This document shows, one piece after another, positions 15,480-48,256 of a DNA stretch of 64,000 nucleotides. Below the pieces are notes generated by a model. It was not told where the DNA came from and searched no databases. It saw nothing but the letters and a program-made list of their open reading frames with translations. Every line of letters starts with the position of its first letter. Positions within the stretch are counted from its first letter, which is position 1. Source of the DNA: Diplonema papillatum (Eukaryota; Euglenozoa; Diplonemea; Diplonemida; Diplonemidae); the NCBI GenBank assembly GCA_030068145.1, contig JAPJBO010000514.1:62001-126000 (forward strand), given 5' to 3'. Both the position numbers and the translations under genes were made by a program.

Positions 15480-18105
15480 CGCGCCCTGCCGGCGGATCAC
15501 GTAGGCGGGGGCGGGAGAGGATGGGGCGGTCGCCACCGAGACGAGCGCCGACGGCGAGACGCGATCTTTTGGTACCCGCGCACGTCGTCCACCACGGACG
15601 CGGCCAAGGAGCAGTGCAAGCGGCCCGAGCTGGCCGGCCGCTGGTTCGCGGTGCTCGCGGACCAGCAGCGTCCCGTCCACAACCCGACACCAATCCTCAT
15701 CGGGAGAGTCTTCACAACACCGAAGCCTTAAACCTTCAAAATCTGGTTGCGCACACTGGCAGAACTCACCTTGCTCTCTGGTAAGTTTTATGTACAAGTT
15801 CCGTGCAGTACACTGCCAGCTACTAATTCTTCGTACCAACTGAGTATTGCTACCACGAAGAGGAGGAGACTTCACAACCCGCATGTTACTCTAAAAAGAA
15901 AAAACCGCTAAAAAAGCAGGCGCTCACTCGAAAGGGGGCAAAAAGGGCACACCCGAGCACCTCAAACAAAGGAAGAAAAGACGTTCGGGTTCTCGCAGGC
16001 TGCGTGCCTGGGCAGGCTCGCCGGGGGCTGCCTGCCGGCGGATCACGCAGGGCGAGGATGGGGCGGTCGCCACCGAGACGAGCGCCGACGGCGAGCCGCG
16101 ATCTTTTGGTACCCGCGCACGTCGTCCGCCACGGACGCGGCCAAGGAGCAGTGCAAACGGCCCGAGCTGGCCGGCCGCTGGTTCGCGGGGCTCGCGGGCC
16201 AGCAGCGCTTCCGTCCACAACCCAACACCAATCCTCATCGGGAGAGTCTTCACAACACCGAAGCCTTAAACCTTCAAAATCTGGTTGCGCACACTGGCAG
16301 AACTCACCTTGCTCTCTGGTAAGTTTTATGTACAAGTTCCGTGCAGTACACTGCCAGCTACTAATTCTTCGTACCAACTGAGTATTGATACCACGAAGAG
16401 GAGGAGACTTCACAACCCGCATGTTACTCTAAAAAGAAAAAACCGCTAAAAAAGCAGGCGCTCGCGGCAAAAAGGGCACACCCGAGCACCTCAAAAAAAG
16501 GAAGAAAAGACGTTCGGGTTCTCGCGGGCTGCGTGCCTGGGCAGGCTCGCCGGGGGCTGCCGCCGGCGGATTACGTAGGCGGGGGCGGGAGAGGATGGGG
16601 CGGTAGTCACCGAGACGAGCGCCGACGGCGAGACGCGATCTTTTGGTACCCGCGCACGTCGTCCACGCGGCCCGAGCTGGCCGGCCGCTGGTTCGCGGTG
16701 CTCGCGGACCAGCAGCGCCCCCTTCACAACCCGCCACCAATCCTCAGCGGGAGCCTCAACCGAGTCTCCACAGCACCGGAACCTTAAACTTCGAAATCTG
16801 GTTGTGCACACTGGCAGAACTCACCTGCTCTCTGTGTAGTACAAGTTCCACGCAGCATTGCCAGCTACTAATTCTTAGTACCAACAGAGTATTGTTACCA
16901 CGAAGAGGAGAGACTCCACAACCCCGCATGCTACTCTAAAAAGAAAATAGTAACAGAAAATCTGTCTCCCACGGGATCGTCGGGAACACATATAACGCTA
17001 AAAAAGCAGGCGCTCACTCGAAAGGGGGCAAAAAGGGCACACCCGAGCACCTCAAAAAAAGGAAGAAAAGACGTTCGGGTTCTCGCGGGCTGCGTGCCTG
17101 GGCAGGCTCGCCGGGGGCTGCCGCCGGCGGATCACGCAGGGCGAGGATGGGGCGGTAGCCACCGAGACGAGCGCCGACGGCGAGACGCGATCTTTTGGTA
17201 CCCGCGCACGTCGTCCGCCACGGACGCGGCCAAGGAGCAGTGCAAGCAGCCCGAGCTGGCCGGCCGCTGGTTCGCGGGGCTCGCGGACCAGCAGCGCTTC
17301 TGTCCACAACCCGACACCAATCCTCATCGGGAGAGTCTTCACAACACCGGACCCTTAAACCTCAAAATCTGGTTGTGCACACTGGCAGAACTCACCTGCT
17401 CTAAGTTTTATGTAGTACAAGTTCACGCAGCACACTACCAACTACTATATCTTAGTACCAACAAAGCGTATTGTTACCACGAGGAGGAGGAGACTCTAAA
17501 ATTCCGCATTTCGCTCTAAAGAACTAGGTGTCTTTCGAAAGGGGCACACCCGAGCACCTCAAAAAAAGGAAGAAAAGACGTTCGGGTTCTCGCGGGCTGC
17601 GTGCCTGGGCAGGCTCGCCGGGGGCTGCCGCCGGCGGATCACGCAGGGCGAGGATGGGGCGGTAGCCACCGAGACGAGCGCCGACGGCGAGACGCGATCT
17701 TTTGGTACCCGCGCACGTCGTCCGCCACGGACGCGGCCAAGGAGCAGTGCAAGCAGCCCGAGCTGGCCGGCCGCTGGTTCGCGGGGCTCGCGGACCAGCA
17801 GCGCTTCTGTCCACAACCCGACACCAATCCTCATCGGGAGAGTCTTCACAACACCGGACCCTTAAACCTCAAAATCTGGTTGTGCACACTGGCAGAACTC
17901 ACCTGCTCTAAGTTTTATGTAGTACAAGTTCACGCAGCACACTACCAACTACTATATCTTAGTACCAACAAAGCGTATTGTTACCACGAGGAGGAGGAGA
18001 CTCTAAAATTCCGCATTTCGCTCTAAAGAACTAGGTGTCTTTCGAAAGGGGCACACCCGAGCACCTCAAAAAAAGGAAGAAAAGACGTTCGGGTTCTCGC
18101 GGGCT
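15480..18105 (+). pseudogene. Tandem array of five 5' fragments of the biotin ligase gene
   Basis: Five units carry the start region of the neighbouring ligase gene (reference ATGGGGCGG points at 15521, 16058, 16595, 17147 and 17654; the intact gene at 18161), so periods are 537, 537, 552, 507 and 507 bp. Units 4 and 5 are essentially identical. Each preserves the frame for TSSxxDAAKEQ and GRWFA, then breaks off at the same point, right after the CAGCAGCG that encodes the biotin-site Gln residues. It then runs into a unique spacer of about 230 bp ending in a family C-like CTCTAAA. Every unit has ACG or GCCACG where the intact gene has ATG, and unit 3 lacks an internal piece. These cannot make a working enzyme. 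Confidence 0.9.
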
Positions 18106-18231
18106 GCGTGCCTGGGCAGGCTCGCCGGGGGCTGCCGCCGGCGGATCACGCAGGGCGAGGATGGGGCGGTAGCCACCGAGACGAGCGCCGACGGCGATGC
18201 GATCTTTTGGTACCCGCGCACGTCGTCCACC

Positions 18232-18945
18232 ATGGACGCGGCCAAGGAGCAGTGCAGGCGGCCCGAGCTGGCCGGCCGCTGGTTCGCGGTGCTCGCGGAC
18301 CAGCAGCGCGACGGCCGCGGCACCGCCCACCGGCCCTGGCACTCCCGCCGCGGAAACCTGCACGCAAGCATCTGCGTCCCGAAGTCTGGCGACGCCGTCA
18401 CCCCTCGCACCCTCCCGTTTCTGCCGCTGGAGACCGGCCTCTCCGTGCTCCTCAGCATCGAAGAACACAAACCCCCGGATTCGCCCGTTAAGGCTCTCCC
18501 GGAATCCGCGGCGCCCGACTGCCAGTTGGCGGTCAAATGGCCCAACGACGTGCTCTTGGGGCAGAAAAAGGTGTCCGGTAGCCTCATAGAGGACGGGGGC
18601 ACGCACATGATCGTCGGCATCGGCGTCAACATCGTAGAAGCGCCTGTGGTGTCGGACGGCGGGCGGGCCACGTGCTGCCTGGCCGACCACCGCTTCGAGG
18701 TGACCGCGCCGCAGCTGGGGCTGCGGATCCTCGAAAACCTGAAGGCGGCGCTCTGCTTGCGGAGGGGCGCCGCCGTGGTCCCGCTGTACGCGGCCAGGAT
18801 CGACTGGCAGCAGAGGGTCCACGAGCGGGGCCCCGACGGGAGCAGGGGCGCGGCCGGCATGCCGGTGCGGCTCACCAAGGACGGCCACCTCGTCATCGCA
18901 CAGCGGGGGAAGGAGAAGACGCTCGTGCACGACTACCTCTACTGA
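18232..18945 (+). CDS. birA: Biotin-protein ligase (BirA/holocarboxylase synthetase family)
   Basis: Joins biotin to a lysine of carboxylase carrier domains through biotinyl-AMP. Visible motifs are the TSSTMDAAKE substrate motif, ADQQRDGRG (biotin/ATP loop), RGNLHASI, VKWPNDVLL, KKVSGSLIE (the KVSG lysine corresponds to the catalytic biotin-contacting Lys) and IVGIGVNI. The C-terminal 80 residues form the usual small domain. At 237 residues it is a stand-alone catalytic module without a DNA-binding domain. The first ATG lies within the conserved TSSTM motif in a strong CCACCATGG context. The frame stays open for more than 180 bp upstream without an ATG, so the true start may lie upstream or on a spliced leader exon. 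The residue after GRG is Thr where BirA has Arg118. The gene is embedded among fragments of its own two ends. Confidence 0.88.
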   Translation: MDAAKEQCRRPELAGRWFAVLADQQRDGRGTAHRPWHSRRGNLHASICVPKSGDAVTPRTLPFLPLETGLSVLLSIEEHKPPDSPVKALPESAAPDCQLAVKWPNDVLLGQKKVSGSLIEDGGTHMIVGIGVNIVEAPVVSDGGRATCCLADHRFEVTAPQLGLRILENLKAALCLRRGAAVVPLYAARIDWQQRVHERGPDGSRGAAGMPVRLTKDGHLVIAQRGKEKTLVHDYLY

Positions 18946-18956
18946 GGAGGGTGGAT

Positions 18957-19720
18957 CGGAGGCTACCGGCATACTCGTTCCATCCTGGCACGCACACTTC
19001 TGTGGCATGTTCTAAACGTGGACAACCATACTTGGATACTTGGATATATCACCGGGTCCTGAACCCGTCAGTACATCCTTTTCTGAAAGGGCACTGGCAT
19101 GCTCGTTAGATCATGTACAATCATACTTGGATGTGTTAGAAGGTCCTGAACCCTCCGCTGCCTCTTTCTGCCGCTTTGTAGCTCATCTACCCTCGTACGT
19201 CCGTCTAATGGGCGGCGGAATGATCAGCAGACGTAGAAGGTCTAGCCTCACGACGTGCGCATGCTGGGGCTGTGGATCCTCGAGTACCTCATCATCGCAG
19301 CGGGGGAAGGAGAAGACGCAGTGTACTATTACCTGAGGAGGCCGTGTGCTCTAGAACACACGGGTGGATCGGAGGGTCCTGAACCCCTTACCAAATCTCG
19401 TTGGAAGGGTTACCGGCATACTCGTTCCGCCAAGCACGCATTGCTGTGGCATGCTCTAGATCATGTACAACCGTAGTTGGATGGGTTAGAAGGTCCTGAA
19501 CCCTTCACCAAATCCCTTTGGAAGGGTTACCGGCATAATCGTTCCGCCTAGCACACACACTTCGGTGGCATGTTCTAAACATGAACAACCATACTTGGCT
19601 GGATCGACTGGTCCTGAACCCTTCACCATGTCCCTTTCGGAGGATCCAACCTAGCACACACACTGCTGTGGCATACTCTAGAACATGTGCAACCATACTT
19701 GGATGCATTAGAAGGTCCTG
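18957..19720 (+). repeat. Degenerate tandem repeat of about 110 bp
   Basis: About six units share GGAAGGGTTACCGGCATACT, CGTTCCGCC(T)AGCACACACA, GTGGCATG(T/C)TCTA and ACCATACTTGGAT followed by AAGGTCCTGAACCCT. A weaker unit continues at about 19935-19985. The array begins directly behind the ligase stop codon. Confidence 0.85.
19255..19340 (+). pseudogene. Internally deleted 3' fragment of the biotin ligase gene
   Basis: CTGGGGCTGTGGATCCTCGA matches 18715-18735 of the intact gene. It is joined directly to CTCATCATCGCAGCGGGGGA, GGAGAAGACG and ACCTGAGGAGG, which match the last 60 bp of the gene (from 18890). About 150 bp in between are missing and two codons differ. It sits inside the minisatellite, so the 3' end of the gene was copied along with its downstream repeat. 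Confidence 0.8.
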
Positions 19721-20862
19721 ATCCCTCCGCTACCTCTTTCTGCCGCTTTGTACCTCATCTACCCCGTACGTCCGGCCTGGCGCCTTCGTGGGCGCTTGAA
19801 TGGTCAGCAGACGTACTCCTGGAGCAAGAGAAAGTCTAGCCTCGCGACGTACACGTGCTCGTCGTCGTAGAGTAAGTTTAAAAAAAAGTTGCTCGGTTCC
19901 TCGTAGTTTTCTGTTGCCACAGGGATACCTCAACTTGGCATACTCGTTCCTAGCCTATACACATGCTGTGGCATGCTCTCGGCTTCGGCACTTCTATATC
20001 AGACAAGTGAATGTGTGGAGTGCCAACCTCTAGTAGTGTGTGACTGGAGTGCTTTACCTAGCACCTAGCGAAAGTCGGCGCGCATCATTGCCCTTCAGTA
20101 TTGCCAGTGGTCTTCGCTGCGGGAATGCGATCCGCGGATCGCTCTTGAGCACTGTCACTTGGTCGTCGCTACCAAAGGCCGCTGTCATACCCAGGTGAGT
20201 TCCGCTAGTGCGTGCAAAGCGCCAAACTAATTTTCAATGTACGTTCTCGAATCTGCCCACACACACGAAGCACGATCCCGCAGCAGCAGCAAGGGCCCTG
20301 TGTCAACAGTTTCCTTTTCACCAAATCGTCAAAGAAATGGCTCCTGTACCATCAGACCAGCATCATGCCACCGAGCGGTAAATGGGGGCCGGCTTGCGAA
20401 CATCGATCCCACTCCAATAGGCAACCCTCTCCTCCCCCCCCCCATTCACCCATCAGTCCCCTCCCTTTGCCCAGTTTTCTTTCTTTGCTTGCTTCTGTGT
20501 AGAGTACTTGTTCTGTAGAGGAGTGCCGGAGTGTACTCGATCCTTCCGAGACCACATACAACCACCGCCGCCCCCTCACCAACCCCCGTCCGATAAAGCA
20601 CAGCAACCATCCTGCATTTTTTTGCGTTGTTCTCCAGAACAGCGGAAGCAGGACCTCACGAGTCGCATCCAAAAAGAGCAGACCAGTGACAGTTCTCACG
20701 AGTCGCATTCAAAGAGCAAAAAACAGTGGCAATCGCCATCCTCATCGCACCTTTCCGAACCACACCGCCTCCTTCGCGTGTTGGAGGATTCTTTTTTTTG
20801 GTGGCGGGGGAGTGGGAACGGGTGGACGCGATCCACGCGGGGCCCGCCCTTGAGGAGCGGAG
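19721..20862. other. Gene-free spacer
   Basis: A second copy of the block TCATCTACCC...GTACGTCCG...GTCAGCAGACGTA (19190-19265) occurs at 19753-19860. The rest shows a CAGCAGCAGCAAGG patch at 20280 and pyrimidine-rich tracts before the next gene. No exon is evident. Confidence 0.5.
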
Positions 20863-22242
20863 ATGGACGACGATTTGCCCGACGTCTGCGACGGCGGCGC
20901 GGACGTGCTGTCGATGGACTTCAACGAGGCCCGGCCGCTGCTGCTGCGGCAGCAGCAGCAGCAGCATCAGCAGCAGCAGCAGCAGCAGCAACAGTCGATG
21001 CACGCGTGTGTCAAGGCGCTCTCCGAGGCGGTCCTAGAGCTCAGCGGGCGGCTGGCGACGGTGGAGGCCGAGCTGGCGAAGGGTCGCGGGGCTCCGGCGG
21101 TCGACGAGTACATTCCGGCGCTGCAGTCGAACTTCCGCAGGGTCGCGGAGGCGCTGCACGACAGGGTCAACGCCCTCGAGCTCACGGCAACCGCCGCGGC
21201 GGCTACCGCCGCTCAAAGCCCGGCGAAGCAGCCGGTCAAAGACACAGCGAAACCGGCACGCCCGGACACAGACACCCGCCTCCGGAAACCGACCAGGTCT
21301 AGGACCCCGCCGAGAGGCGCCGCCGCCAGCCGGGGCTTCGGGACGCTGTTCCCGAGGAAGTCGGCCGCCGCCGCGGCGGACTGCGCCCGCCGCCCGACCG
21401 GCCCCAGGGCAGCGGCAGCCTCCGACGCGAAGGCGAGGGACAGGCCGCGCAGGGCACCGGCCGCGGCGGCGGCCGAGCGGTTTGCGAAGCCCCCGGGGCC
21501 GGAAGCGGAGGCGGACGCGCACCCGCGGCTGTCGAGAACCGCGCACAAGGCGCCGCACCGCGGGTCGGCGCCGGGCCGGCCTTCGAGCACGGGCCCGCCG
21601 GCGGCGGGCGACCAGTTGCTGCGGCGGGCGACGTTTTCGGTGCAGTCGCGCCGGTCGCTGGCGAGCCTGCCAGACCCCAGCAGCGGGTACCGCTCGGACG
21701 GCCCGGAGGCCGACGTCCCCGTCATCGGCGGGGGCGCGACGCCGCCGCGGAAGGCGCCGTTTTACGACCGAATCGCGAGCACCGACGACCTGGCGCCGCG
21801 CTGCGGGACGGGCAAGGGGAGCGACGTGCTGGAGGCGTTGGCCGATCTCCCGGTCCTGCCGCAGGCGGCTGGGTTCCACCGGTCGCCCAGCTCGAACGAG
21901 CACTTCGCTGCGTCGCCGGAGTCGCGGGCGACGGAGGTGTTGAACCTCAACGTCAGCGGGGCCGACCTGCAGGCCGCCGTTGAGCGTGCACACAGTGACG
22001 CGGCTTCCGCAGCCGACTGCTTCAAGCCGGTTTCCCGTGGCAGGTTCTCCGTCGAACCCGCTGCCGCCGCCGGATTGACGGAGCGCAGGGCGCCCGTTGA
22101 CGAGCCGGGTAACGGGGTGGTCAATTCGCCGCCGTCTTCGGTGTGCTCCCGGCAGGCTTCGGAGGAGGAGCTGCGCCCCGAAGGCTTCTCCCGCGGGCCG
22201 GCCGCCGGTTTCCGCCACTCGAGACCCAGGAACAGCGAATGA
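20863..22242 (+). CDS. Coiled-coil, polyQ and low-complexity protein, unknown function
   Basis: A 459-residue protein beginning MDDDLPDVCDGG. Residues about 29-45 are glutamine-rich (CAG repeat). Residues about 47-108 form an amphipathic helix pattern ending VAEALHDRVNALE. The remainder is disordered, rich in Ala, Arg, Pro and Ser, with scattered basic clusters. The helical segment aligns with residues 25-90 of the next gene downstream (VGESLHNRLTAVE), so the two are probably tandem paralogs that have diverged outside the coiled coil. ATG was chosen because it is the first in-frame start after the pyrimidine-rich upstream tract. The 3' 220 bp are copied again 445 bp downstream. No enzyme motif is present. 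A cytoskeletal or scaffold role is only a guess. Confidence 0.65.
   Translation: MDDDLPDVCDGGADVLSMDFNEARPLLLRQQQQQHQQQQQQQQQSMHACVKALSEAVLELSGRLATVEAELAKGRGAPAVDEYIPALQSNFRRVAEALHDRVNALELTATAAAATAAQSPAKQPVKDTAKPARPDTDTRLRKPTRSRTPPRGAAASRGFGTLFPRKSAAAAADCARRPTGPRAAAASDAKARDRPRRAPAAAAAERFAKPPGPEAEADAHPRLSRTAHKAPHRGSAPGRPSSTGPPAAGDQLLRRATFSVQSRRSLASLPDPSSGYRSDGPEADVPVIGGGATPPRKAPFYDRIASTDDLAPRCGTGKGSDVLEALADLPVLPQAAGFHRSPSSNEHFAASPESRATEVLNLNVSGADLQAAVERAHSDAASAADCFKPVSRGRFSVEPAAAAGLTERRAPVDEPGNGVVNSPPSSVCSRQASEEELRPEGFSRGPAAGFRHSRPRNSE
20949..20996 (+). repeat. (CAG)n in coding sequence
   Basis: About 15 CAG codons interrupted by one CAT and one CAA encode the polyglutamine tract of the host protein. 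Confidence 0.95.
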
Positions 22243-22462
22243 CAGCAGCTAGGTACAGCCGTCTCGCAAACCAGATTCACAACCGCCGCCGCGTCTGCAG
22301 ACACTCAGGCTCCGCGTTGAAGGTGGCCCGCCTTCCGTGGCCTAAAGGACCGAAACACGGTGCAGATACGACCAGTGCGGTGCAAGCACAATACCATTCC
22401 AAGCGCGTTCTCCCCCATCTGCAGTCACAATTAGTGCAGACAGTGACGCAAGCTCTACTATG

Positions 22463-22685
22463 GACTGCTTCAAGCCAGTTCCTCCGTCGAACCCGCCGCT
22501 GCCGCCGGATTGACCGAGCGCAGGGCGCCCGTTGACGAGCCGGGTAACGGGGTGGTCAATTCGCCGCCGTCTTCGGTGCTCCCGGCAGGCTTCGGAGGAG
22601 GAGCTGCGCCCCGAAGGCTTCTCCCGCAGGCCGGCTGCCGAGTTCCGCCACTCGAGACCCAGGAACAGCGAATGACAGCAGCTAG
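22463..22685 (+). pseudogene. Copy of the 3' end of the 20863 gene
   Basis: GACTGCTTCAAGCC through GAATGACAGCAGCTAG repeats 22016-22254 at high identity. A 10-bp deletion near its start (CGTGGCAGGT missing) shifts the frame, so the original reading ends early. The flanking non-coding block (CAAACCAGRTTCACAACCGC) is duplicated too, giving a tandem unit of about 445 bp. Confidence 0.85.
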
Positions 22686-22689
22686 CGAA

Positions 22690-24904
22690 CAGCCGCCTGG
22701 CAAACCAGGTTCACAACCGCTGCCCCGTCTGCAGGCACTCAGGTTCCGCGTTGACGATTTCGGTGTCCGCGGCTTAAGTGACCGAACCACGGTGTAGATA
22801 GGACCAGTGCGGTGTCGGGCCTAATCATTTCTATACTCACGTTCCTGCAATCCCCCATCCGTAGTCACATTCACCAGTAGTGTCGTTTCGACTAACGCGA
22901 GGTGGGGGCGGGGAGAAACAAAAGGGTCTTCCCGGTGTTGGACATTCCATCGTTTTTTTTACGTGGGCGCCAGCTTGAAATGCCCGACGATGCTGCCAGA
23001 CAAAGAACCGAAGGGATCCCAAGTGCTGTAGCTACCGAACCACGTGTTGAACGAACGTGAGGTTATGCGGGTCTATCCCTATACGACAAGACACACACAC
23101 ACACACACACACACACAACAGACCAAAAGTCCTGGGTGAGAAACCAACACAGGTGGTGTAAGCGAAGAACCAACACAAGAGCCCTACCTCTATATTTCCT
23201 CCCACTCGGAGTCAAAGCAGCTGCGTCGAGTACTCTTGGCTTGGGCGTTTCGTATAATCGGTCATTTCGACGTTTGCTGGCATGGAAGCATGCTAGCAGA
23301 GGCAATCAGCCATTTCGTTAGTTTTTGGTATGGAGAGAGACTCATTTGTGTATCGACCGTTTCGATGCTTTCTGGCATCGTTTTTTTGACGTGTGTTGCG
23401 GCATGGCAGCATGCCAGCGAGGCTCGTTCTTGTATCGTCCATCCGGTCAGTTTTCGTCATTGTTTCCTTGCACCGTCCTCGGTGCACGGCAGAGAACGTG
23501 GAGCCTGCGCCCTCCCTAGCTGCAACTGTCACGGTTCGAGATTACAGCTCCGCGGTAAACAAGCCGCAAGGCTGCAATGTGGCATGTTACGAACTGGTAC
23601 CCGGAAGTCACGGCACGGCTTCACCCTCGCCCCGTCTTGTTGCCACAAGGTGGTTCCTCAGTGCTCAGCACCGGCTTCTGAAGCCGGTAGCTACTCGCAT
23701 TGGTTCCCTCCAACGGCACAATCAAAAAGAAGTTAGTCAAGCTTCGTGGCACCGCAGTGTGCCATCGCTGCAACCTGGGGCGTGCTGCCAGTCAACCCAC
23801 TGCACTGAGTATAGAGGCGCTCAATATTCCCCGAGCAATGCCAGGTCAATAGCCCCCGGCTTTGGTGCCCTGGAAAGAAGGAATACGCAGCCTGACAGCA
23901 CTGTTTGATCTGTCGAGTGACAGCACACACACACCACACCCACTCACACACACGCGCATGCGCAATCCGTAAAAGCTATCCTAAAAGTCTCGACGGACCG
24001 GCCGTTGGTCCGTCGAGCTCAGCGCCGGCTGCCTTGTGTTCCCCGGCGGAGCAGCGAGAAAGTTGTTCTTCTCTTCCTTTGACCCATTCCTGCGACCCAT
24101 AAGGACCCTCTTTTGCCGAAAAAAGGGGGGTCGGCAGAACCCACATGGAAAAGCAGCCAGGTGGCCTAGAACGCCCGGGAGATCCAGAAAAAGTGGTCGG
24201 ATGCTCGTTTAGGCTGGAATGATGGCCACAGAATGCGAAACCAAGGCCGCAGAATGCGAAAGGACCAAGGAGAATGCTCAAAAAGGTCAACCAAAGAGAG
24301 GTGCGGCGCAGAAGTAGAGGAGCCGCAGAGTTGGTCGACCACAAAGCCAAGCGGACGGAGCTGTGATGTGCCAAGACGGTTGGATAGCATGGCCTACGGG
24401 TCAAGGCGTGCCTTGGGTTGGGGCTTGGAGCTTGCGCTGAAGATGAGCCTGTAGAACACAAGCCAAAGCGGGAGTGGTTGCGCCGCCAAGACAGTTGGAT
24501 AGCATGGGTCAACGGGTGAAGTAGCTGCCGACTTCCCGAATTATTGCAACAGGGCGTACCTTGGGTTGGGGCTAGGCTTGCGCTCAAAACAAGCCCGTAG
24601 ATTTTGTCTACCCCAACAGAGCTGGCGGGGTTGTCGAACTGTCCTAACTCCGACTCAAGCTTTGCATGCTGCGGCTGACCACGTCTTCAGTGAAAGTCCT
24701 GGAACACACACGGCTGCGCAAAAAATTCAGCGCCGCCACAATACAGGGCCGACGTCGAGTAATAACACCCATGTGTCGAACTGTAGCAGGGTCAACTGCG
24801 GGCAGTGTTTTTTGACAGCCAGACACATGTCAACATTTTTTGACCCCTCCCCGTTACCCGAAGAAGAAAGAGAAAGAGGAGAAAGGGAAAAAGCCGCTCC
24901 GGGT
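22690..24904. other. Gene-free spacer with repeats
   Basis: Holds a (CA)n tract at 23091-23117, a loose tandem duplication of CATTTCGACGTTTGCTGGCA-like sequence at 23255-23430 and a CA-rich patch at 23920-23960. One reverse piece of the 570-bp satellite lies at about 24183-24245, and two reverse copies of family D at 24340-24690. Several short frames overlap and none looks genuine. Confidence 0.5.
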
Positions 24905-25227: not shown

Positions 25228-28200
25228 ATGTCGGACCGCGGCTCTGACTACTCGACGCCGCTGCTGGACCTCGTGGCGAAGGATGCGTACGCGGTGCTGC
25301 CGCCGCAGCCCCTGGGGGACTACCTGCAGGCCATCGTCGAGGCGCTGAAGGACCTGGGCCAGCGGCTGGCCGCGTCCGAGGAGCGGGAGAAGACGACAGC
25401 GCACGACGTCACAGCCCTCGCCGACCTGCTGCCCCAGGTGCAAGACAACCTGAAGGAGGTGGGCGAGTCCTTGCACAACCGGCTGACGGCAGTCGAGGCT
25501 TCGCAGGCCGACGCGGACGAGGAAGACTTCCCCGCGAGGATCCAAGCGCTGACGACCCGCCTGGACACCATGGAGGTAGACCTGCCCCAAACGCTCAACG
25601 ACCGCCTCGAGGAGCAGCAGCAGCGCGCCGCGGAGGAGACCACCGCCATCGCCGCCGACATCGCCGGCATCGCCGCTACCCTGCGCCAGCTGCAAGGCGG
25701 GCGCCCGGACGACCTGCGGCTGCGGGCGATTGAGGCAGACTTGACCCGCCCGCTGACTCCGTTCCAAAGCAACCCGATCACCCTGCGCCTGGCGGCGCCG
25801 CTCACCCGGTTCGAAGCCAACGGGGGCGCCCGAGCCCTGCGGGCGTCGATCGCCGAAAAAGTGGACCTCCTGCAGCAGGAGGTGCACGTCATCGCGTCCC
25901 CAAGCGAGGATGCGCCGGGCGAGACGACAGTGGCCCTCCGCGTGGCTTACGCGGGGTTCGGCAAAGTCGGGAAGCGGCAGGAATCGACGGCGGTGCCGGC
26001 CGAGGCGCTGGTCGAGCAGCTGTGCAACCGGTTCAACGCCGGGACCGCCGGCAGCGTGATGGCCGACATAGAGGTCGCCGCCGCGTCCCGCCCCGACCCG
26101 CTGCTCTTCGAGTTCTTCGCGCAGAGGCGCGGCAGGGTCGGCTTCGGCCGCCGGCAGCTGGGGTCCGTGTGCACGGGGGTCATCTCGCTGCTGTGCGACA
26201 GCATGCGCCGCCTGCACGACGCCGAGTTCTGGATCCGGAACGCGCGGGCGTACTACGACAAGCTCCGCCGCTTCCAGCGCAAGCGCTGGACCCGCAACAA
26301 GCCGGCCATCGCGGCCGCGGCGAAGGCGAGCGCACTCTCGACCCTGGCTCGGTACTGGGGCAAGCTCTCGCGGCACCTCTCCGCCGCGAAGCGGGACCGG
26401 CGGCGCCTGCGCGCCTGCCGGGCCGTCGAGGCGTCCGCCGACATGCACGCCCGCCGCCGGTGCCACCGACAGGCCCTCGCGTGGCTCGCCGCACGCAAGG
26501 AGCGGGCGAAGCGCGACGCGCGCCGGCAGCGGGCGCTGAACACCGTCGCCAGAAGCGCGGACGACGCCCTGCGGCGGTTCTACCTCGGCAAGGCAACGGC
26601 TTGGCTCGACACGAAGCTGTCGCGACGGAAGAGGGCCGGCCGCGTTGGAGGGGTCTGCCCGTCTTTTTGTGCATCTGTGGTGTTGCCCGCTCAAGCAACT
26701 TCTGAAACCTTGCTGGCCGTATGGGCAGTCTGAAACTTTGCGGGCCAGTATACGCAACTTTTGAAACCTTGCTGGCCAGCAGTTTTTAGTACTAACAATC
26801 TTGCGGGTTGCCCTTCAATGTATTGTGCAGGCTACAAAGACGTAGGCAGCGTGTTTTGGTGGTTGATCAGAATTCCTTACCTGAATGCACAGGGTAAATA
26901 CAAGTGGGAAAACGATCACCCGACATATTGACGATCCTGTTGACCATGTCCACAGGCCCCGGATGTTGCAGTCGTCTCTTTTTGAAGGAAGGGTTGACCC
27001 TTGAAACGCTTCACGCGGGGACAGGGTTAACTATCGTGGACAGCTGCACTTTCTTCGTGTAGTAGTTCATAGAACAATACCTCTCATTCTTGCTCACCTC
27101 GTTTCTCCAACTCACCACAGGGCGCGGCGGACAACCTGCTTCTGAAGAACAACATGGCCTGCAGGCGCTCCTTCTTCAGCTTGTTGCGTGCCTTTGCCAA
27201 GAAGCGAAAAGCAAGAAGGAGGGTGGTCGCAAACCGGGAGCTCGCCAACCAGAGATTGCTGACGGCGAAGTACTACGGCCAATGGTCCGCGTTCGTGAGA
27301 AAGCGCAGGGCGCATGCCAAGGCGCACCGTCGGCGCGTATGCCTTTTTATCAAGCCTTTTTATCTGGCAGCTCCGGGAAAACAAACCACGTCCTTTTATG
27401 CCCCGTGGTCAGTGCTCCCGCTATGAAAAAAGCCGGTCTCTTATGACACCATTTTTTTTCTTCAAAAAACACCCGGCAAAAAAAGGACGGTCTTTTTTTA
27501 GCCGAAAAAAGACCGGCTAGCCGGCCTTCTTTCGGCAAAAAAAGACTGGCTAGCCGGCCCTTTTTCGGCAAAAAAAGACCGGCTGCAACCGATCAGTGCA
27601 GTAGGCCGTGGCATTGAGTAGTAGTGCAGGTGGGCTCATCGCAACAACAGTTCAGCAGGAAAGAGGGACTCTCGTGAACAAAATACCTGGACAAAAACGC
27701 AGTCGTCAGGATAATGAGGACGGAGCGCAGAAAAATCTGCGGCAGACGACACTGTTCGGCACAGTTTCGAAGGTGAGCCGTCCAGAGCCTCTCGCGGGTG
27801 GATGCTGCGGGCCTTCAGGAACTTGATAACTCGCTGAATGCCAAGTTCAAACTGGCCACTATATTCGGATTGTCAACGTCGATTGACAGCGTCGTACACC
27901 GACGAAAGAATCTCTGGGCTGCTCTGTTGCAAAGCGAGAAGAGCGGCTGGTGTTCGGTGAACACAACTGGCGCTCCACCAGGAGCAGCTGCAACTGTTGG
28001 TGCGTTCAATCCGAACGGTACTGCTCTTCCCCCATGAACCACATACTGGAGAAAAAACCCAGCCACAGCCCAGCGCACGAAAAAAAATAGCCCAGGAGCC
28101 ATTTTTTAAAAAAAGACCGGGTCATCGGCCTTAGCGGGAACACTGCCCATGGTACGGAAAACCCCCTGATTTCTTTTGGGTACCAAGATACATCGGAAGG

Positions 28201-37170: not shown

Positions 37171-40100
37171 ATGACCGTCGCTGCTGGCTGCCGGCGGCTT
37201 GTCTTCGTGCTGGGATGCGCGGCGGGGCTGGTGCCCACCGACAGCCTCGTTGAGGTGGCCGTGCATCCAGCGGGCAACGCACAGCGGCTGATGAACCCGC
37301 AGCCGGTGTTCAGGGTCGTTTCGCCGACGTCGCCGGTGGCCCTGCCGCCGGGGACGACGGCCTCGCTGACGGTGCTGTCGGGCCCCGGCTTGCTCTCGGG
37401 CACTCTGACGATCCCTTTCGAGAACGAGAACGCGTTTCCGTTCACGAACCTCGAGATCAACACCCCGGGGACCTACAACTTGCAGTTCCTCGCAACGACC
37501 CCCGCCTCCGTCAGCTTCCGGAAGGCGCTGTCCCTCAACGTGGCCAACGCCGTTCCGACGCAGGTCATCCTCGCCACGGACGAGGGCATGTACGGATTCA
37601 TCGGCGGGCAGTTGTTCCCGCAGCCGGTCCTGTTTCTGGCAGACTCCAGCGGCGTGGCAACGATGGACGCGGGCCTCTCCGCGTTTTGCGTCGTGGAGCC
37701 CGTTTCTCCGTTGGTCGCCTTGATCGGGCAGAACAACAGCACCGTGTCGGCGGACGGCGTCACGTTCACGTACGTCGGCCTCCGCATGGACACGCTGGGC
37801 CAGCACCAGCTGAACGCGACGGCCACGCTGACGAGCGGCGTCCAGCTGTCGACGGTATTCAGCGTCACGGTCGACCAGGCCCAGCGGCTCCCCGTCTCGG
37901 CGGTGTTGGAAACGACGCCGCGCGCGGCGGCGCAGGCGGACTTCGCGACGCCGATCTCGATCCTGCTCGTCGACAGCGCCGGCGGCCCGGTCCCGAACGA
38001 TGCGCGCGCGACTCTATCGGTCGTCTCGGCGCCCGCAGGCGGCGGTTTGACGGGCGCTGTGACCGCCGGCGCGGACGTGTCAAAGGCGCGCATCACCTTC
38101 CCCGCCGTGCAGGCGACGGCCGCCGGCCGGTACGTCGTGCTGGCCTCGGTGACGCTGTCCAGCGGAACCGTGCTGACGGCGTCGCTGCCGTTCGAAGTGA
38201 CGCCGCAAGACCCCGAGCCGGCCTGCATCTGCATCCTGCAGCAAGGCGTCGGCCGCAGCGGGGTCGTGCTCGCGCAGCAGCCGATCCTCGCGATGGCGAG
38301 CGCGTGCCTGGGGTCCAGCTGCGCAGACTTGATGGCCTCCCCGAACGCTACGCTGTACCTGAGCCTGGCGTCGGGCCCTGGGAACGGGACGATGACCGGC
38401 GAGACCCTCGTCACCAGCGACGCGCAAGGCAGGTTTCTCTTCAGAAACCTCGCCTTCGCGGCACCCGGCGTGTACTTGTTGACAGCCTCGGTCCGGCTGG
38501 CCACCGGCACCCTGCTGCCGGACTTTGGCTTCGTCCTGCACCTGGCCGTGAACTTGGAACCGGCGGTCATCGCGATCGCGACCAGCCCGCGCGCCACGGC
38601 TGCCGGGGCGGTGCTGCTGCCGGCGTTGGAGGTCGAGCTGATTGCGGTGGACGGCGCGCCCGCCGCCGACGACGGGGCGAGCGTCGCCTGCTTCTTGACG
38701 CGGGCGCCCGCCGGACCCCCGGCGGCGCTGGCGGGTTCGACGCTCGCCGTGCGGGTCGACGAAACGAGCGACGCTCGGTACCGGTTCGAAAGCCTCGCCA
38801 TCAGCGCAGCCGGCGTCCACGTCCTCGAAATCTCGGCCGTGCTGTCGACCGGAGACGTGCTGTACACAACAGTCGCCGTGACCGTCTCGCCCGCCTACCG
38901 CCGCCCCCCCCGGGGCCTGCTCCCGGAACCCTCGCCGACCGTTTCGGTCGCCGGAGTTGGCGGCGGTGTTCCGCTGCTTGCGGAGCCTCGGTTCGCGTTC
39001 GTCGACATCCTCGGGGAACCTGTCAACTCGTCGGCCGGGGCGCTGTGCACCTTATCCAACACGACGGTCGAGTTTGAGGACGGGGGGCCCGCCGATCCGT
39101 CCACCGGGCGCTTGGTGCCCGTGGCGCCGCTCGCGCTGCAGGCGGCCTCGCGGTTCGCGCTGCCGGCGCTGGCGGCGGACGCGCCGGGTGTGTACCGGCT
39201 GAGCGTCGCGTGCGCGATGGCCGACGGGGCGACGGTGGTTACCGGCGCCGACACGCTGCGCACGCAGGAGCGGCCGGCGGCCGGAGGCCACGGCACAGCC
39301 GCGAAGATGATGCGGGCCGCGGTCGTCTTCGTCGGGCTGCTGCTCCTGCTCAGCTACGCCCTGCTCCGCATCCTCGCACGGTCCGGCGTCCCGGTCGCCA
39401 CACTGCTCGCCGGCGGGACGAAACCGGCCTCCGGGGACACCGCATTGCCCCCGCGGAAGCGTTCCGGCGGGTTTGCCCTGTTCGAGGGTGGGGGGAATGT
39501 GTCGGTCGCGGCGCAAACGGACGCCGCTGTGATGCTGCGAATCGCGGGGGCCGGCGGCGACCCGCGGGCGCAGGCGGACGAGATGCTGAAGGCGCTGGTG
39601 CGGTGCGTCGACGGCTCGGGCGAGAGCGCGCCCTTGAAGCGCCAACTGCTCTTCGCTCTCCTCCACGCCGACGTCTGCGCGGCCGCCGACGAGGAGCTGG
39701 GCGGCAGCGAGGGGTCCGCGTCCACCTTCGGCGGGATCGACGTGCAAACCCGCGGGACCGCCCGCTCGCACGAATCCCTCGCAACGACGCCCTACGCCGG
39801 CCCCGGCGACGCTCCCTCATCCGCCGGCGGCGGCCCGCAGCCGGACTCCTCCGACGCAAACAGCTCCCGGCGCCCGTCTACTGTTCAGTTCGCCGAAAAC
39901 CGAGAGGCGTCAACCTCGTCGCCCCGGCACCCCAACGGCAGGCCCCGGCACCCGTTCGCGCCGGGTGCGTCGGCGGGCTGCAACATTTCCGACAGAGATG
40001 CCGACGAGGACGCGGCGTCCTACACTAACGAGATGGACGACCTGTTAGGCCGGTGCGTCGGCGGCCCGAGAGCGGCCGGCAGCGGGGAGAGGGATCCGGA

Positions 40101-41766
40101 CGGCGGTGTTCAGTGCAGACGAGAGTCAACCTTGCCGCTGAAGCAGAAAAGAGACATGCGGGAAGCCATCCGCGAGCTCGATCTGCTGGAGCAGAGGGCG
40201 TTGGAACGTGCTGGCACCACCAGCCCCCCTGGCAGGTTCCCGCGAGGAGGCGTCGCGCAAGCGCAACCCTACGCGGCGAGGCCGTACGACACGTTGTTCA
40301 AAGGTCCGTCCCTTGCCCGCTACGGGTTCCCGGACGCCCTGCCGCAAGCGAAGCCGAAGCCGGCCGCGCACCCGATCCCGCCTGCCGGCTACGTGCTGCC
40401 GGGCGGGATGTCGCCCGCGCGCTACCACACGCCGACCGCCTTCCAAACCCCGCCGTTCGGCACCCCAGCTCCGTCGTCGGTGAAGAGCGGCAACCGCACG
40501 GTGCCCGCGCCGCAGCTCCTCCCCGGCGGCCACGAGACCCCCGCCCGCCCGGCGCCGCACCCGCTGCTCTCGAACGGAAACGCGGAAGACCCCCTCCCCG
40601 CCGCGTCGCCCCCCTACTACGACCACGCCGCGGGCTTCGGTCAGCCCCCGCAGCGGTGGTTCCGGGGGCGGGGCAATGATGCCACAGACTTCCAGGCAGG
40701 GTACTCAGGACGGGGCGACGCAACAGGCTTCCAGGCAGGGTACTCAGGACGGGGCGATGCAACAGGCTTCCAGGCAGGGTACTCAGGACGGGGCGATGCA
40801 ACAGGCTTCCAGGCAGGGTTCTCAGGGCGGGGTGATGCCACCGGATTGCAGGCAGGACACCCAGGGAGCGGCGGCAGCGGCGAAGCGACGCCGGGACCGG
40901 GGCCGAAAGAAGAAGAAGACGGCGCCGAAGAGGAGATCATCTTCTGGAAGCACGCGCTCGCCCGCGCGGAGTCCGGGACGCCCCGCCGCCCGCGGGAGGC
41001 GGCCGAGAGCCTGGCGGCGCCGCCGGGCGGCAGCTCGCAGCCGCCGCCGGCACCGGCGTCGGACGCGGCGCCCGAGCTGTCAGTGGAGCCCGGGTACCAG
41101 CTGCTGCCGGAGGAGCAGCGGCGGAAGATCGCGGCGTTCGCGGCGGCGTCGGTCGCGCAGCGGCAGGACGAGCGGGCGCGCAGGGAGGCGGGCGCCGGCA
41201 CGCGGGCCGCCGGGCCGGCCTTTTCCGGCGCCGCGATCGCCGCCGCCGTCCAGAAGCAGGACGACGTTCTCGCACAGCTCGTCGCGAAGGTCGACGGCGT
41301 GACCTCTGCAGTCACGGAGCTGCGCTCGAGGGACAAGGACCGCGAACCGCCGCCGGCGCCGCCGCCTCCCCCGCGCAAAGCGTCCCAGGACGGCGCCAAC
41401 GACAGCCACCTCACGCTGATGTCCGCGGCCTCCGCGGCGCACGGCCCGCCGTCCACCTCGAGCACGCTGGGGGTCAACTGCTCCGACAACCCGCACGTCA
41501 TCACCGTGACGTCACCGTCCTCCATAGCTACAGAGGCCCCGCCGTTCCCGGGCAGCCATTACCGGGTTTTGAAGACACCCCGCGATCTGTCTGCGACGGT
41601 GTCTTCCGTGTCCGACGAGACCGTCACCAATTCGAGCGTGAAGACCCAACTTCCAGCTGCAGAGCTTCGCAAGAAGAAGAAGCCAACTCAGCTGAAAGCC
41701 CTCATGCGCCCCAGCGGCGAGCGGGACAGGACCAGAGAGCTCATCCACGAGCAGCTGTTGTCTTGA
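37171..41766 (+). CDS. Large single-pass membrane protein, unknown function
   Basis: A 1531-residue protein without introns. Residues 1-25 look like a signal peptide (basic MTVAAGCRRL then a hydrophobic core). The next 680 residues form about five diverged repeats of roughly 130 residues with beta-rich Ig/filamin-like pattern. Each ends in phrases such as FRNLAFAAPGVYLLTASV and ARITFPAVQATAAGRYVVLA. One transmembrane helix lies at about 713-735 (AAVVFVGLLLLLSYALL). The 800-residue cytoplasmic part is low in complexity, with RGDATGFQAGYSG repeats at about 1170-1235 and a charged helix pattern near 1300-1390. Type I topology is inferred. It may be a surface or adhesion receptor; no catalytic motif is visible. 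Direct repeats flank the gene and a decayed 3' copy follows it. Confidence 0.72.
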   Translation: MTVAAGCRRLVFVLGCAAGLVPTDSLVEVAVHPAGNAQRLMNPQPVFRVVSPTSPVALPPGTTASLTVLSGPGLLSGTLTIPFENENAFPFTNLEINTPGTYNLQFLATTPASVSFRKALSLNVANAVPTQVILATDEGMYGFIGGQLFPQPVLFLADSSGVATMDAGLSAFCVVEPVSPLVALIGQNNSTVSADGVTFTYVGLRMDTLGQHQLNATATLTSGVQLSTVFSVTVDQAQRLPVSAVLETTPRAAAQADFATPISILLVDSAGGPVPNDARATLSVVSAPAGGGLTGAVTAGADVSKARITFPAVQATAAGRYVVLASVTLSSGTVLTASLPFEVTPQDPEPACICILQQGVGRSGVVLAQQPILAMASACLGSSCADLMASPNATLYLSLASGPGNGTMTGETLVTSDAQGRFLFRNLAFAAPGVYLLTASVRLATGTLLPDFGFVLHLAVNLEPAVIAIATSPRATAAGAVLLPALEVELIAVDGAPAADDGASVACFLTRAPAGPPAALAGSTLAVRVDETSDARYRFESLAISAAGVHVLEISAVLSTGDVLYTTVAVTVSPAYRRPPRGLLPEPSPTVSVAGVGGGVPLLAEPRFAFVDILGEPVNSSAGALCTLSNTTVEFEDGGPADPSTGRLVPVAPLALQAASRFALPALAADAPGVYRLSVACAMADGATVVTGADTLRTQERPAAGGHGTAAKMMRAAVVFVGLLLLLSYALLRILARSGVPVATLLAGGTKPASGDTALPPRKRSGGFALFEGGGNVSVAAQTDAAVMLRIAGAGGDPRAQADEMLKALVRCVDGSGESAPLKRQLLFALLHADVCAAADEELGGSEGSASTFGGIDVQTRGTARSHESLATTPYAGPGDAPSSAGGGPQPDSSDANSSRRPSTVQFAENREASTSSPRHPNGRPRHPFAPGASAGCNISDRDADEDAASYTNEMDDLLGRCVGGPRAAGSGERDPDGGVQCRRESTLPLKQKRDMREAIRELDLLEQRALERAGTTSPPGRFPRGGVAQAQPYAARPYDTLFKGPSLARYGFPDALPQAKPKPAAHPIPPAGYVLPGGMSPARYHTPTAFQTPPFGTPAPSSVKSGNRTVPAPQLLPGGHETPARPAPHPLLSNGNAEDPLPAASPPYYDHAAGFGQPPQRWFRGRGNDATDFQAGYSGRGDATGFQAGYSGRGDATGFQAGYSGRGDATGFQAGFSGRGDATGLQAGHPGSGGSGEATPGPGPKEEEDGAEEEIIFWKHALARAESGTPRRPREAAESLAAPPGGSSQPPPAPASDAAPELSVEPGYQLLPEEQRRKIAAFAAASVAQRQDERARREAGAGTRAAGPAFSGAAIAAAVQKQDDVLAQLVAKVDGVTSAVTELRSRDKDREPPPAPPPPPRKASQDGANDSHLTLMSAASAAHGPPSTSSTLGVNCSDNPHVITVTSPSSIATEAPPFPGSHYRVLKTPRDLSATVSSVSDETVTNSSVKTQLPAAELRKKKKPTQLKALMRPSGERDRTRELIHEQLLS
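40678..40860 (+). repeat. 39-bp in-frame tandem repeat
   Basis: About five units with TTCCAGGCAGGGTACTCAGG and ACGGGGCGATGCAACAGGC encode FQAGYSGRGDATG in the cytoplasmic region of the membrane protein. Period in multiples of three suggests tolerated copy-number change. Confidence 0.95.
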
Positions 41767-41902
41767 TTTCAGGAGACCGTCAGAATACATGCGTGATTGA
41801 ACTCTCCCGTGCGGTATCGCGTCCCAAGCCAAGCCAGTCTTGATTTCAGGAGACAGTCAGGACACATGCAGATTGAACTCTTTTGTGCGGGATTGCGTCC
41901 AA

Positions 41903-42090
41903 GCCACCGCCAGCGACAGCCGCGCCACGCTGATGTCGGCTGCCTCCGCGGCGCACGCACCCCGTCCTCACCTCGGCACAGCTGGTGTCAACTACTCCGC
42001 AGCCCGCATGTCGTCGCCGTGATCGCCCTCCTTCCTCATGCGCCCGAGCGAGCGACAAAGCAAGGGAGCAGCTTTTGTCTTGATTCCTGG
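41903..42090 (+). pseudogene. Decayed 3' fragment of the 37171 gene
   Basis: AGCGACAGCCGCGCCACGCT, CTCCGCGGCGCACG and CTCCGCAGCCCGCATGTC correspond to 41401-41515. CTCATGCGCCC and CAGCTTTTGTCTTGATT correspond to the last coding bases and stop of the gene (41701-41770). Several deletions and frameshifts are present. The post-stop block GTCAGGA(T)ACATGCAGATTGAACTC also recurs at 41782, 41858 and 42092. Confidence 0.8.
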
Positions 42091-42199
42091 ACCGTCAGGA
42101 TACTTGCAGATTGAACTCGCCTGTGCGGTATAGCGTTCCAAAAGCCGCTGCAACCGACAGCTGCCTCGCGCTGATTTTACGCGGGCTTTACTGCAAATT

Positions 42200-42327
42200 C
42201 TTTCGGCTGACACCATTTGCGCACTGAACCATGGTTGGAAGACGACTGAAAGCATAGACACAAAGATAGCTCGAAGCATCTGCAGAATAACACGAAAAGC
42301 CTCCAGGCAAAAACCCGTTTTCACATT
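42200..42327 (+). repeat. Direct repeat flanking the 37171 gene, right copy
   Basis: TTTCGGCTGACACCATTTGC, CGAAGCATCTGCAGAATAAC and CACGAAAAGCCTCCAGGCAA match 36911-37037. Position relative to the 3' fragment is what a tandem gene duplication with a collapsed second copy would leave. Confidence 0.85.
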
Positions 42328-43241
42328 TCTTTGGAGAGCACAGCCGCGCTTATGTCTACCGTTGGAAAGCGTTTTGGGGAACCACATGGAACGCAAGCCG
42401 AGGATCCGTGCCCAAACTCACAGGCAAACCGTATCTTATTGCACTGATGGGAGGGCGAGAACCGTCCTGTGCCGACAACCTTCACTGTCGACCTTTGACA
42501 CCCGCAGGACATGTTACATATCAACCCGGTAGGGTAGAAGCCGCGAACAGCCAACCAATAGAAGGGAATGGTTGTCCTCCCGCCCCCCCCCGCGAATAGA
42601 GGGACCGAGGGAACCAAACAACAAAAAAAACAACGAAGTAGTGGCATTGCATTCCGTATCGAAGATTCATTTTCTGTCTTTTCGAGTTAGGCTCTGCTTT
42701 GTAAAATACTCGAGGGGGCCACATGGCAAGTCACACATGCACAGTGACTCCACACGAAACGACCCACTGTGGACTGTGGGACCAGTGTGGCACCCACTTT
42801 GGGCTGTGGACCCACACTTAGCATTGTGGACCATGTGCCCACTCTGGACTGTGGTCAACCACACATAGGACTGTGTACCTGGTACAGAGGGGGGGCGTAT
42901 TCGTTGAACAACACAACCCATTCTTCAGTTGCATTGCTTCTTTTGCTGACGAGAGACCCTCTCCGAGTGTTCTTTGGCGCAAGTAGATCTCGGACAAAAC
43001 AAGTTGTCGACACCTAACAAGTAAGCTAATCCAACAAAACGACGCAGTTCTCCGCGTTTTGTTCTTCGTGTTCAGTCCTAAAATGCTCGACTCGACGGCG
43101 ATAACCGACCGCCTTCATGGCAGGGTTATAGTATTACATTGGTGTCTGTGTACCAGCTAGCTTCGGGGAGGAATTGCAGCCCCTCAGCTCGTCAGCATTG
43201 CATTTCTTCCCCACGTCGGTAGGCAGCCGTGGACCCGGCCA
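42328..43241. other. Gene-free spacer
   Basis: Contains a family B fragment (42690-42725) and a degenerate repeat of GGACTGTGGACCA / CCCACTTTGG at 42755-42880. No gene seen. Confidence 0.5.
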
Positions 43242-46356: not shown

Positions 46357-47670
46357 CTGGTCCCGAGCCGCTGTTGTGAGCCTTCTCGTTGCGTTTCTCG
46401 CGAGTTCGCAAGCATCACTATTTTCAGGCGGCGCACCCTAGTGTAGCTTGCCGACCCGCCAACCCGAAAGACCTGTGTGAGTGCCGCCCGCGCTGGCGAG
46501 ACCTTTTTTTTGTTTCCATATTTTTTTCACGGTCTATTGGTACTGAGAGATTTCAGGAACAACGTTGCACATGAAAAGTTGAACGAAGCCAGCAACAAAG
46601 GCACCCACCGATGCTCTTCCCTCGTGTACGTGACACCTTCATGAACACATTGCATATAAATGTTATACTCCTATTGCCGAAAGACACGCGGGAACTCTAA
46701 ACCCCCGGAGTTTCAAGCGATCTTTCACTCTAAGAACAGTATTTTCCCGGAGACAGGTTTGTACCCTGCACACGCGAAGACCAAGGATATTTTGCTTGAG
46801 CATTTCATTTTTCCGCCGTTGCCTTCCAAAAGTTGTGGTTGGCTGAAGCAGCGTCAGCTTGAGCCAGTTGAGTTGTCAACAGAGCATGGATTCGAAGGAT
46901 AGCTGCATGCAGGAACCAGGGTGCCGCCACCTACCAAAGGTTCCAGTCGGCTGAAGCAAGGGAAGAACTTGTCACCCCCTCCTGGGTTCCCGTCATCAGA
47001 CCCCAGCTGAGCTCGTGTCACAGTGTCACACCAGAAATACACTACCGCTTGCAATCGGGACACTTCTGAGCCAGCCGCTAAAATAGGGGTCTCAAGTACA
47101 CGGGAGTACGGTTGTACTGAAGGGAACATTGCCGAAGAACAGTTGCACATGAAAAGTTAAACGAAGCCAACAAAAAGTGCTGATATTCGGACTCGAACAT
47201 ACTACATACAGTCCATTTTCATCGTCATCGATCAGTTGATGCTTCGATAGCAAGTGTTCATTTTTTAATGTTGACATTGTCGACAGCCGGAGACCGCTCC
47301 CCCTCCGCCCCATACCATGCATGGCTGTGGATCTTTCTGCCGTTTCTCTTTTCGTGCGCTAAAGCGCTTCCCCGGCTGCTCAGGAAAATATTAATTGCCG
47401 TTCGTGGGTCTTGTCGCGCTGACCAAACGAGATCCCACACACAGCTTTCCCACCCTTTGCAGGCATTTCTTTTGAAAGGTTCCCAGCCGCGAAACGTGTC
47501 ATACAGCACGAACCAGTTCCTGGGGGTATCGAAGTAGAGCTGCAGAAAATGACGTCTCCGTTTTCCAGCCCGCACCACGCGCGCTTCTTGCATCGACATG
47601 GCACAGGAAATTGAGAATGCCGAGCATCGGTGAAAAAGCAAGCAAGCAGCTGTACAGCTCCGGTTTCTGT
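46357..47670. other. Gene-free spacer
   Basis: Holds a repeat family C copy (46671-46737) and two related phrases AACA(A/G)TTGCACATGAAAAGTT (46563, 47140). No open frame with domain character. Confidence 0.5.
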
Positions 47671-47726
47671 TGCATGCGGTCTCAGCCACCATCCAAGCTT
47701 CTCTTCATTCTAGAAGAAGAGACACG

Positions 47727-47970
47727 ATGAAGAAGTTGGCGTTCGCAATCACCGGCGGCACCGCACGGGAGCGAGCGGTCGGCGTCGTCAGCGACGGGGC
47801 CGCCGCGATGGCGCGCCTGCGCGTGCTGCCCGAGAGCGAGCGGAAGGAGCGGATCCAGCGCATGTACGACCGGCACCGGCGGCGGGAGTTGGCGAAGGTC
47901 GTCGTGTCGCAGTGGAAGTGGGTCGCCCGGACGCGCCTGCAGCGCGTCCGCGACCGGACCGGCCGCGCTT
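47727..47970 (+). pseudogene. Truncated 5' copy of the Sfi1-like gene
   Basis: MKKLAFAITGGTARERAVGV and the next 60 codons match the start of the gene at 48257 with very few differences. After RDRTGRA the copy breaks and runs into unrelated codons that stop at 48128. The leader just before the ATG (about 47671-47726) is also duplicated. A small protein of about 130 residues could be made, but the repeats that define the family are missing after the first. Confidence 0.8.
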
Positions 47971-48256
47971 CTGGCACTGCGAAGTACAAGCACCCCTTGT
48001 TCTTACAGTACCCCCGGGTAAAAACCCGAGCTGCAGCTACATCCGTGACCCAGCCACCCGAGTCCTCTCTTAAAGAAGAGAACTTATGCACACACTGTTC
48101 CAAGTCCTGGTCATTGACTGATGCCTGAAATGTAAACCCACCGTTCTCACAATAGGCTTCACTCCCACTCCCTGCCCTTCTCAACAAACCCGAGCTGGTC
48201 ACGGGTTGCATGTAGTCCCAGCCACCGCCCAAGTCCTTCTTAAAAGGAGAGGAACG

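Follow-up and report, generated by a model that had tools for sequence, protein, structure and literature searches.

Eight genes were called by a codon model in the stretch of 64 kb that we analysed from the nuclear genome of the marine protist Diplonema (Paradiplonema) papillatum (hereafter the window, on contig C514). All eight are on one strand. The original prediction, which was made from the sequence alone, held that truncated copies in the same orientation lie next to four of these eight genes. This was borne out, since self-BLAST of the 64-kb window and sensitive alignment found same-strand partial copies at all four sites, namely a biotin ligase gene, a gene called Sfi1-like in that prediction, and two genes that we designate by their first position, 20863 and 37171 (Table 1).

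Table 1. Genes with duplicated ends in the window, their partial copies and the adjoining dispersed elements (window positions).
Feature	Position	Strand	Basis or remark
5' array preceding biotin ligase	15183..18309	+	Offsets 507-546 bp (self-BLAST, alignment)
Biotin ligase ORF	18232..18945	+	Counted from first ATG; Pfam PF03099, E 5.1e-15
Biotin ligase 3' end, partial copy and trailer array	18887..19774	+	Self-BLAST, inspection by eye
20863 gene, 3' end duplicated	20863..22242	+	ORF list, codon model; no Pfam match
20863 gene, unit 1 (ORF end and trailer)	21986..22398	+	Sensitive alignment
Dispersed element ending in a C-run, within unit 1 of the 20863 gene	22247..22412	+	1636 first-look genome candidates
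20863 gene, unit 2 (truncated 3' copy)	22434..22829	+	Sensitive alignment
37171 gene, 3' end duplicated	37171..41766	+	ORF list, codon model; no Pfam match
37171 gene, source segment (3' coding end and trailer)	41380..41836	+	Alignment
Additional copy of 37171 trailer 41760-41837	41837..41913	+	Self-BLAST
37171 gene, truncated 3' copy	41895..42146	+	Sensitive alignment
Dispersed ~131-bp element adjoining the 37171 copy	42202..42332	+	2188 first-look candidates
Sfi1-like gene, truncated 5' copy (upstream)	47669..47968	+	Self-BLAST, alignment
Leader segment, third copy, Sfi1-like site	48022..48083	+	54/59 identical (sensitive alignment)
Sfi1-like gene 5' edge, source or partner of the copy	48205..48498	+	Self-BLAST, alignment
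Sfi1-like gene (name from the original prediction)	48257..50827	+	ORF list; no Pfam match

The biotin ligase gene has copies on both sides. Its PF03099 domain starts 5' of the first ATG, in the same open frame. Every unit of the array preceding the gene includes part of its 5' coding portion, and the terminal partial unit enters the ORF, where the match ends at 18309. The three upstream copies that we compared all have two extra bases relative to the gene, which break the frame, and two adjacent copies are mutually identical over 160 bp. Together, these features indicate that the array grew from copies that were already broken. Downstream, the 3' piece is a match of 52 bp at 85% identity by self-BLAST (18887-18938 vs 19286-19334) that, judged by eye, extends into the gene's stop and the next bases; the trailer array has a period of 117 bp (18961-19774).

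The two units of the 20863 gene follow each other head to tail at an offset of 434-448 bp and are identical at 349 of 394 positions, the coding part of the second unit having indels of 1, 2 and 13 bases. The organization of the 37171 gene is more intricate. Its coding sequence is matched in two blocks, 41380-41521 by 41895-42032 and the end of the CDS with its stop (41700-41766) by 42034-42083, and its trailer is matched both by 42077-42146 (from 41760-41835) and by 41837-41913 (from 41760-41837). The truncated copy contains a stop codon and lacks a counterpart of 41522-41699; most copies of the dispersed element that adjoins it are 93-97% identical among the matches listed. The two members of the Sfi1-like pair are 92% identical, with identity stepping within the copy from 70-72% to 93-100%. 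This sequence occurs at one place in the genome and is free of dispersed elements. By sensitive alignment, the homology of the Sfi1-like spacer to either flank was at the level of the null. Since some sites, such as this one, have spacers of this kind, not all of them are clean two-unit duplications.

The genome that we searched comprises 271.4 Mb in 2910 contigs. Our counts cover the window, 20 random 10-kb stretches (L009-L028) and three stretches of contig C1 (L044-L046); the other 23 of the 46 fetched loci (L001-L008, L029-L043) were omitted for having been picked by repeat match, overlapping the window or being 100 bases long. The random sample consists of the first 20 stretches out of 170 drawn and is confined to contigs 1-950 and positions 5001-70000; local pairs were made non-redundant and had offsets of at most 5 kb. 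All 20 random stretches have at least one same-strand local pair. Direct repeats cover 19.3% of their bases and inverted ones 2.8%, with 70 same-strand pairs of at least 100 bp vs 12 inverted, and in the window the coverage is 15.9% vs 1.4%. Contig C1 shows the reverse trend, with direct pairs in 4.9% of the bases and inverted pairs in 10.4%. Mononucleotide shuffling of the sampled stretches left no local pair of at least 60 bp. Some matches are longer than their own offset (774 bp at 507, 948 at 565, 578 at 519 and 595 at 460). Truncation points are sharp even where the copies are 98.8-99.1% identical, and most of the pairs at gene edges are old or lie within arrays.

The codon model made 30 calls in the window and the random sample and 11 on the reversed sequence, so that about a third of the calls may be false; the ORF list of the full window contains many antisense ORFs and was not taken as a gene set. 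Edge copies accompany four of eight genes in the window, 9/22 in the random stretches and 1/3 on contig C1. This total of 14/33 compares with 10.0 expected when genes are randomly placed on the duplication map (p 0.09), and stricter gene calls give 12/28 vs 8.7 (p 0.13). The original prediction regarded four of eight as far more than chance, which fails for this genome overall because random placement gives similar numbers: 2.9 genes were expected when eight were placed on the window's own duplication map (p 0.32), and outside the window 10/25 called genes had edge copies vs 7.2 expected (p 0.16). Hence, the overall edge rate does not clearly exceed that of random placement on this genome's duplication map. 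None of the 33 genes of the window, random stretches and contig C1 has an inverted edge copy, and 18 of the 21 edge pairs lie on the same side as the gene end closest to them (0/2 on contig C1). Offsets are divisible by three in all 11 pairs wholly internal to a reading frame, in 9/21 edge pairs and in 38/85 non-genic pairs, the last share being itself above one third. The figure of 11/11 is partly built in, because an out-of-frame duplication would end the called ORF.

Protein-domain searches, which are independent of the gene caller, reveal only the pieces inside the domain and give a lower bound. After merging by hand 109, 75 and 38 match rows into 87 Ras-family, 55 cyclophilin and 30 UBC loci, clear nearby partial copies were found at 8 of about 172 loci (3/87 Ras-family, 5/55 cyclophilins and 0/30 UBC). 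The cyclophilins on C304, C221, C1430, C1278 and C301 and the Ras-family loci on C738 and C137 are flanked by 5' pieces on the upstream side or 3' pieces on the downstream side; at the Ras locus on C292 the upstream piece comes from the middle of the domain and not from its end. In total, 9/10 pieces come from an end and lie where expected; domain-level offsets range from about 330 to 850 bp. Ambiguous overlaps (Ras on C262, cyclophilins on C61, C129, C589 and C6, UBC on C638 and C36) and an in-frame Ras tandem on C348 were left uncounted. In the same genome, a profile search for the light-harvesting family PF00504 gave no match. Whether edge copies concern more than a small percentage of genes, which the original prediction had left to a wider scan, has a mixed answer: about 40% at the nucleotide level, flanks included, and about 5% at the domain level, a lower bound.

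The basic observation is already known in this species. The "repeat-bounded gene structures" described by Valach et al. 2023 (PMC10161547) in D. papillatum are genes whose 5' or 3' ends are repeated in tandem; expert validation identified dozens of such gene models. The main example has a unit of ~400 bp with copies 71-96% identical, is supported by long reads (PacBio), and its array is absent from the mature mRNA. The passages of that paper on these structures offer no mechanism, and among the matches listed by our literature search the term 'repeat-bounded' occurs only there. Species and assembly lineage are the same as here, although the published assembly has 280.3 Mb in 6181 contigs and ours is probably another release or a filtered copy. 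Like the published structures, ours occur in the nuclear genome of D. papillatum, and the biotin ligase and Sfi1-like genes have part of their 5' region (UTR and CDS) in tandem upstream. The 20863 and 37171 genes and the 3' piece of the biotin ligase appear, from sequence, to belong to the class with repeated 3' ends, whose published copies form 3'-UTR or intron (PMC10161547).

Very probably, the pieces arose when segments of about 0.3-0.9 kb were duplicated locally, in tandem and head to tail. They have the same orientation, follow each other head to tail, have unit boundaries unrelated to whole genes, and recur across the genome with the frame pattern described above. One breakpoint of each unit falls within the gene, so the copy was incomplete from the moment it formed. 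When the duplicated segment straddles a gene end, it would leave an intact gene on one side and, on the other, a piece truncated from the outset (of the 5' end if upstream, of the 3' end if downstream). Tandem duplication in which one breakpoint lies within the gene accounts for the position of copies on the near side, the lack of inverted copies, the offsets shorter than the gene and the sharp truncation of near-identical copies. The first step may be the repair of staggered breaks or template switching. Natural tandem duplications in a plant, rice, were reportedly attributed by Vaughn and Bennetzen in 2014 to patch-mediated break repair, and the likeness is in this break-repair origin. Small tandem duplications arising by CST-guided Pol alpha-primase fill-in and end joining (Schimmel et al. 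2021, PMC8355091) also duplicate head to tail the segment between staggered break ends, but in mammalian cells, where the introduction of that study cites insertions under 100 bp, whereas the units here are of several hundred bp and their repair route is putative.

With direct repeats in place, unequal exchange or gene conversion might add further units, as in the 5' array of the biotin ligase, and might have homogenised parts of the Sfi1-like pair. Matches exceeding their offset are consistent with unequal exchange among repeats already present, as is the step in identity within the Sfi1-like pair with conversion. The copies would then decay, with the reading frame filtering the survivors: duplications wholly inside it would persist only as multiples of three, which is how they are seen, while edge duplications are free of this constraint because an intact copy remains. 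Edge duplication would also be expected to be nearly harmless in an organism with polycistronic transcription and spliced-leader trans-splicing, as reported for D. papillatum (PMC10161547).

The original prediction proposed that a gene and its flank are duplicated in tandem and that one copy is then eroded. The tandem, same-strand and recurrent character of the duplications stands, but the erosion of whole-gene copies does not, given the breakpoint inside the gene. Full-length tandem gene copies do occur, such as the four cyclophilin copies on C71 and a Ras-like array on C1847, and decay is seen in truncated copies, where it is secondary. Yet, the four window sites have offsets (434-546 bp) below the length of the gene, the sequence that separates copy from gene shows no homology to the remainder of the gene, and truncation remains sharp in nearly identical copies, so that the reduction of whole-gene copies to an edge is highly improbable. 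We consider very unlikely, too, that mobile elements made the copies, either by insertion of a short C-tailed element with very long target-site duplications or by transport of a gene end as a 3' truncated retrocopy. The C-tailed element within the 20863 gene's first unit does end at the start of the second, and the layout at L020 4897-5605 is similar. But the Sfi1-like site has no dispersed element, 5' pieces cannot come from 3' retrocopies, and the apparent long target-site duplications in L013 and L027 turned out to be dimers: the modules of a dispersed element, R, a simple repeat and X, recur in this order elsewhere in these stretches. An assembly artefact that set two haplotypes or mis-joined reads side by side is the reading to which we give least credence: the organism is reported to be haploid, with fewer than 600 SNV sites across 142 Mb free of repeats, and PacBio reads cross the published array (PMC10161547); the copies studied here are 70-99% identical with indels, and ORFs are kept open by in-frame internal duplications.

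The young R-X-R pairs of L013 and L027 were considered in their own right as C-tailed elements with target-site duplications of 150-190 bp, which a pair in L022 also resembles. This was rejected for L013 and L027, since R and X are modules of the element that recur jointly; the start of X is found at 350 exact places in the genome. In a long target-site duplication the flanking repeat is host sequence, and in these two stretches it is element.

Local tandem duplication leaves room for a process that acts at gene boundaries, with a tandem step of roughly 0.5 kb at trans-splice or polyadenylation boundaries, for example through transcription-linked breaks. That such a process makes the duplications seems rather unlikely, and we entertain it tentatively. 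Offsets of 400-560 bp are found in 11/19 edge pairs vs 8/70 others (p 0.0014 by a label permutation scanning all 150-bp ranges), in line with the ~400-bp unit of the published example (PMC10161547). Edge copies in this range accompany 10/33 genes vs 2.6+-1.5 expected, and, with the window excluded, 6/25 vs 1.6 (p 0.004); among the 33 genes, none of the other three offset classes departs from its null. At identities of at least 90% the figures are 5/33 vs 0.96 (p 0.004), and below 90% they are 5/33 vs 1.49. Preservation bias, by which a selected copy stays detectable longer, was also considered as a cause of the edge enrichment and judged insufficient: since the class is enriched at 90% identity or more as well, the slower decay of conserved copies is not enough to account for it. 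Against a boundary process, the range was read post hoc from the same few data, several pairs share a gene, some of the eight non-edge pairs belong to the biotin ligase arrays, and the possibly false third of gene calls weighs here too. The enrichment across all offsets is weak, the class below 90% identity is not significant with stricter calls (3/28 vs 1.21, p 0.11), dimers of dispersed elements at 380-650 bp also occur away from called genes, and domain-level offsets are broad. The data thus suggest a link to gene boundaries that is limited to the 400-560 bp class, a range chosen after seeing them. We are slightly more doubtful that a process linked to gene boundaries favours a step of about 0.5 kb and goes on surrounding genes with truncated gene ends.

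Beyond the published description (PMC10161547), as far as its passages on these structures go, our analysis gives a rate from a random sample, controls by inverted copies and random placement, the frame pattern and the clustering of edge offsets at 400-560 bp, and this clustering may be new. Local tandem duplication accounts for a puzzling pattern and calls for no special mechanism, in an organism where the pattern was already on record. Annotators should be aware that truncated gene ends mislead gene models, as noted by Valach et al. (PMC10161547). Should the enrichment of copies at offsets of 400-560 bp at gene ends also hold for the published annotation, a boundary-linked mutational process would be indicated in a transformable protist. 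If this process exists and is tied to trans-splicing or polyadenylation boundaries, sites of RNA processing would be coupled to the growth of the genome.

The large-subunit rRNA gene piece in the window matches the Rfam model with 863 bits at model positions 665-1888 of 3401, about one third of it. Window self-BLAST matched parts of this piece to 26922-27065 (97% identity) and 28577-28688 (94%). Dispersed 28S pieces, at most 10% of the gene in size, are described in the D. papillatum genome paper (Valach et al. 2023, PMC10161547).

The modular dispersed elements in two random 10-kb stretches of the genome (L013 and L027) are ordered R, simple repeat, X, where X starts with TTGCAGTTTACTGAGGGAAT, a start that has 350 exact matches genome-wide, and ends in a C-run. 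In the dispersed element ending in TTGCAATCCCC, the C-run is variable, and head-to-tail dimers are frequent, with a spacing of 400-650 bp. The reverse transcriptase ORF probably derives from a non-LTR element.

The 565-bp-step array has 97.7% identity and no called gene nearby; an FHA-RING gene lies directly downstream of the 33-bp-unit array and its ORF. On genome contig 348 (C348), a protein-domain search placed the two Ras domains 603 bp apart. This pair is an in-frame internal duplication, and may be a fused double GTPase.

Features in the window and at other D. papillatum loci (L022, random 10-kb stretch; L030-L040, loci fetched outside the random sample)
Feature	Location	Strand	Match or context
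Large-subunit rRNA gene piece	window 60050-61166	-	Rfam RF02543
Dispersed element ending in TTGCAATCCCC with C-run	window 22247-22412; also L030-L040		
880-aa ORF with reverse transcriptase domain	window 52451-55093	+	RVT_1
33-bp-unit array	window 32079-33090		within 404-aa ORF 31997-33211
Array, 565-bp step	window 62383-63895		
Modular dispersed element, tandem dimers	L013 7840-9850		
Modular dispersed element, tandem dimers	L027 2456-4230		
Candidate modular element	L022 6812-7299		layout related to L013/L027
Two full Ras domains, single open frame	C348 70489-71565
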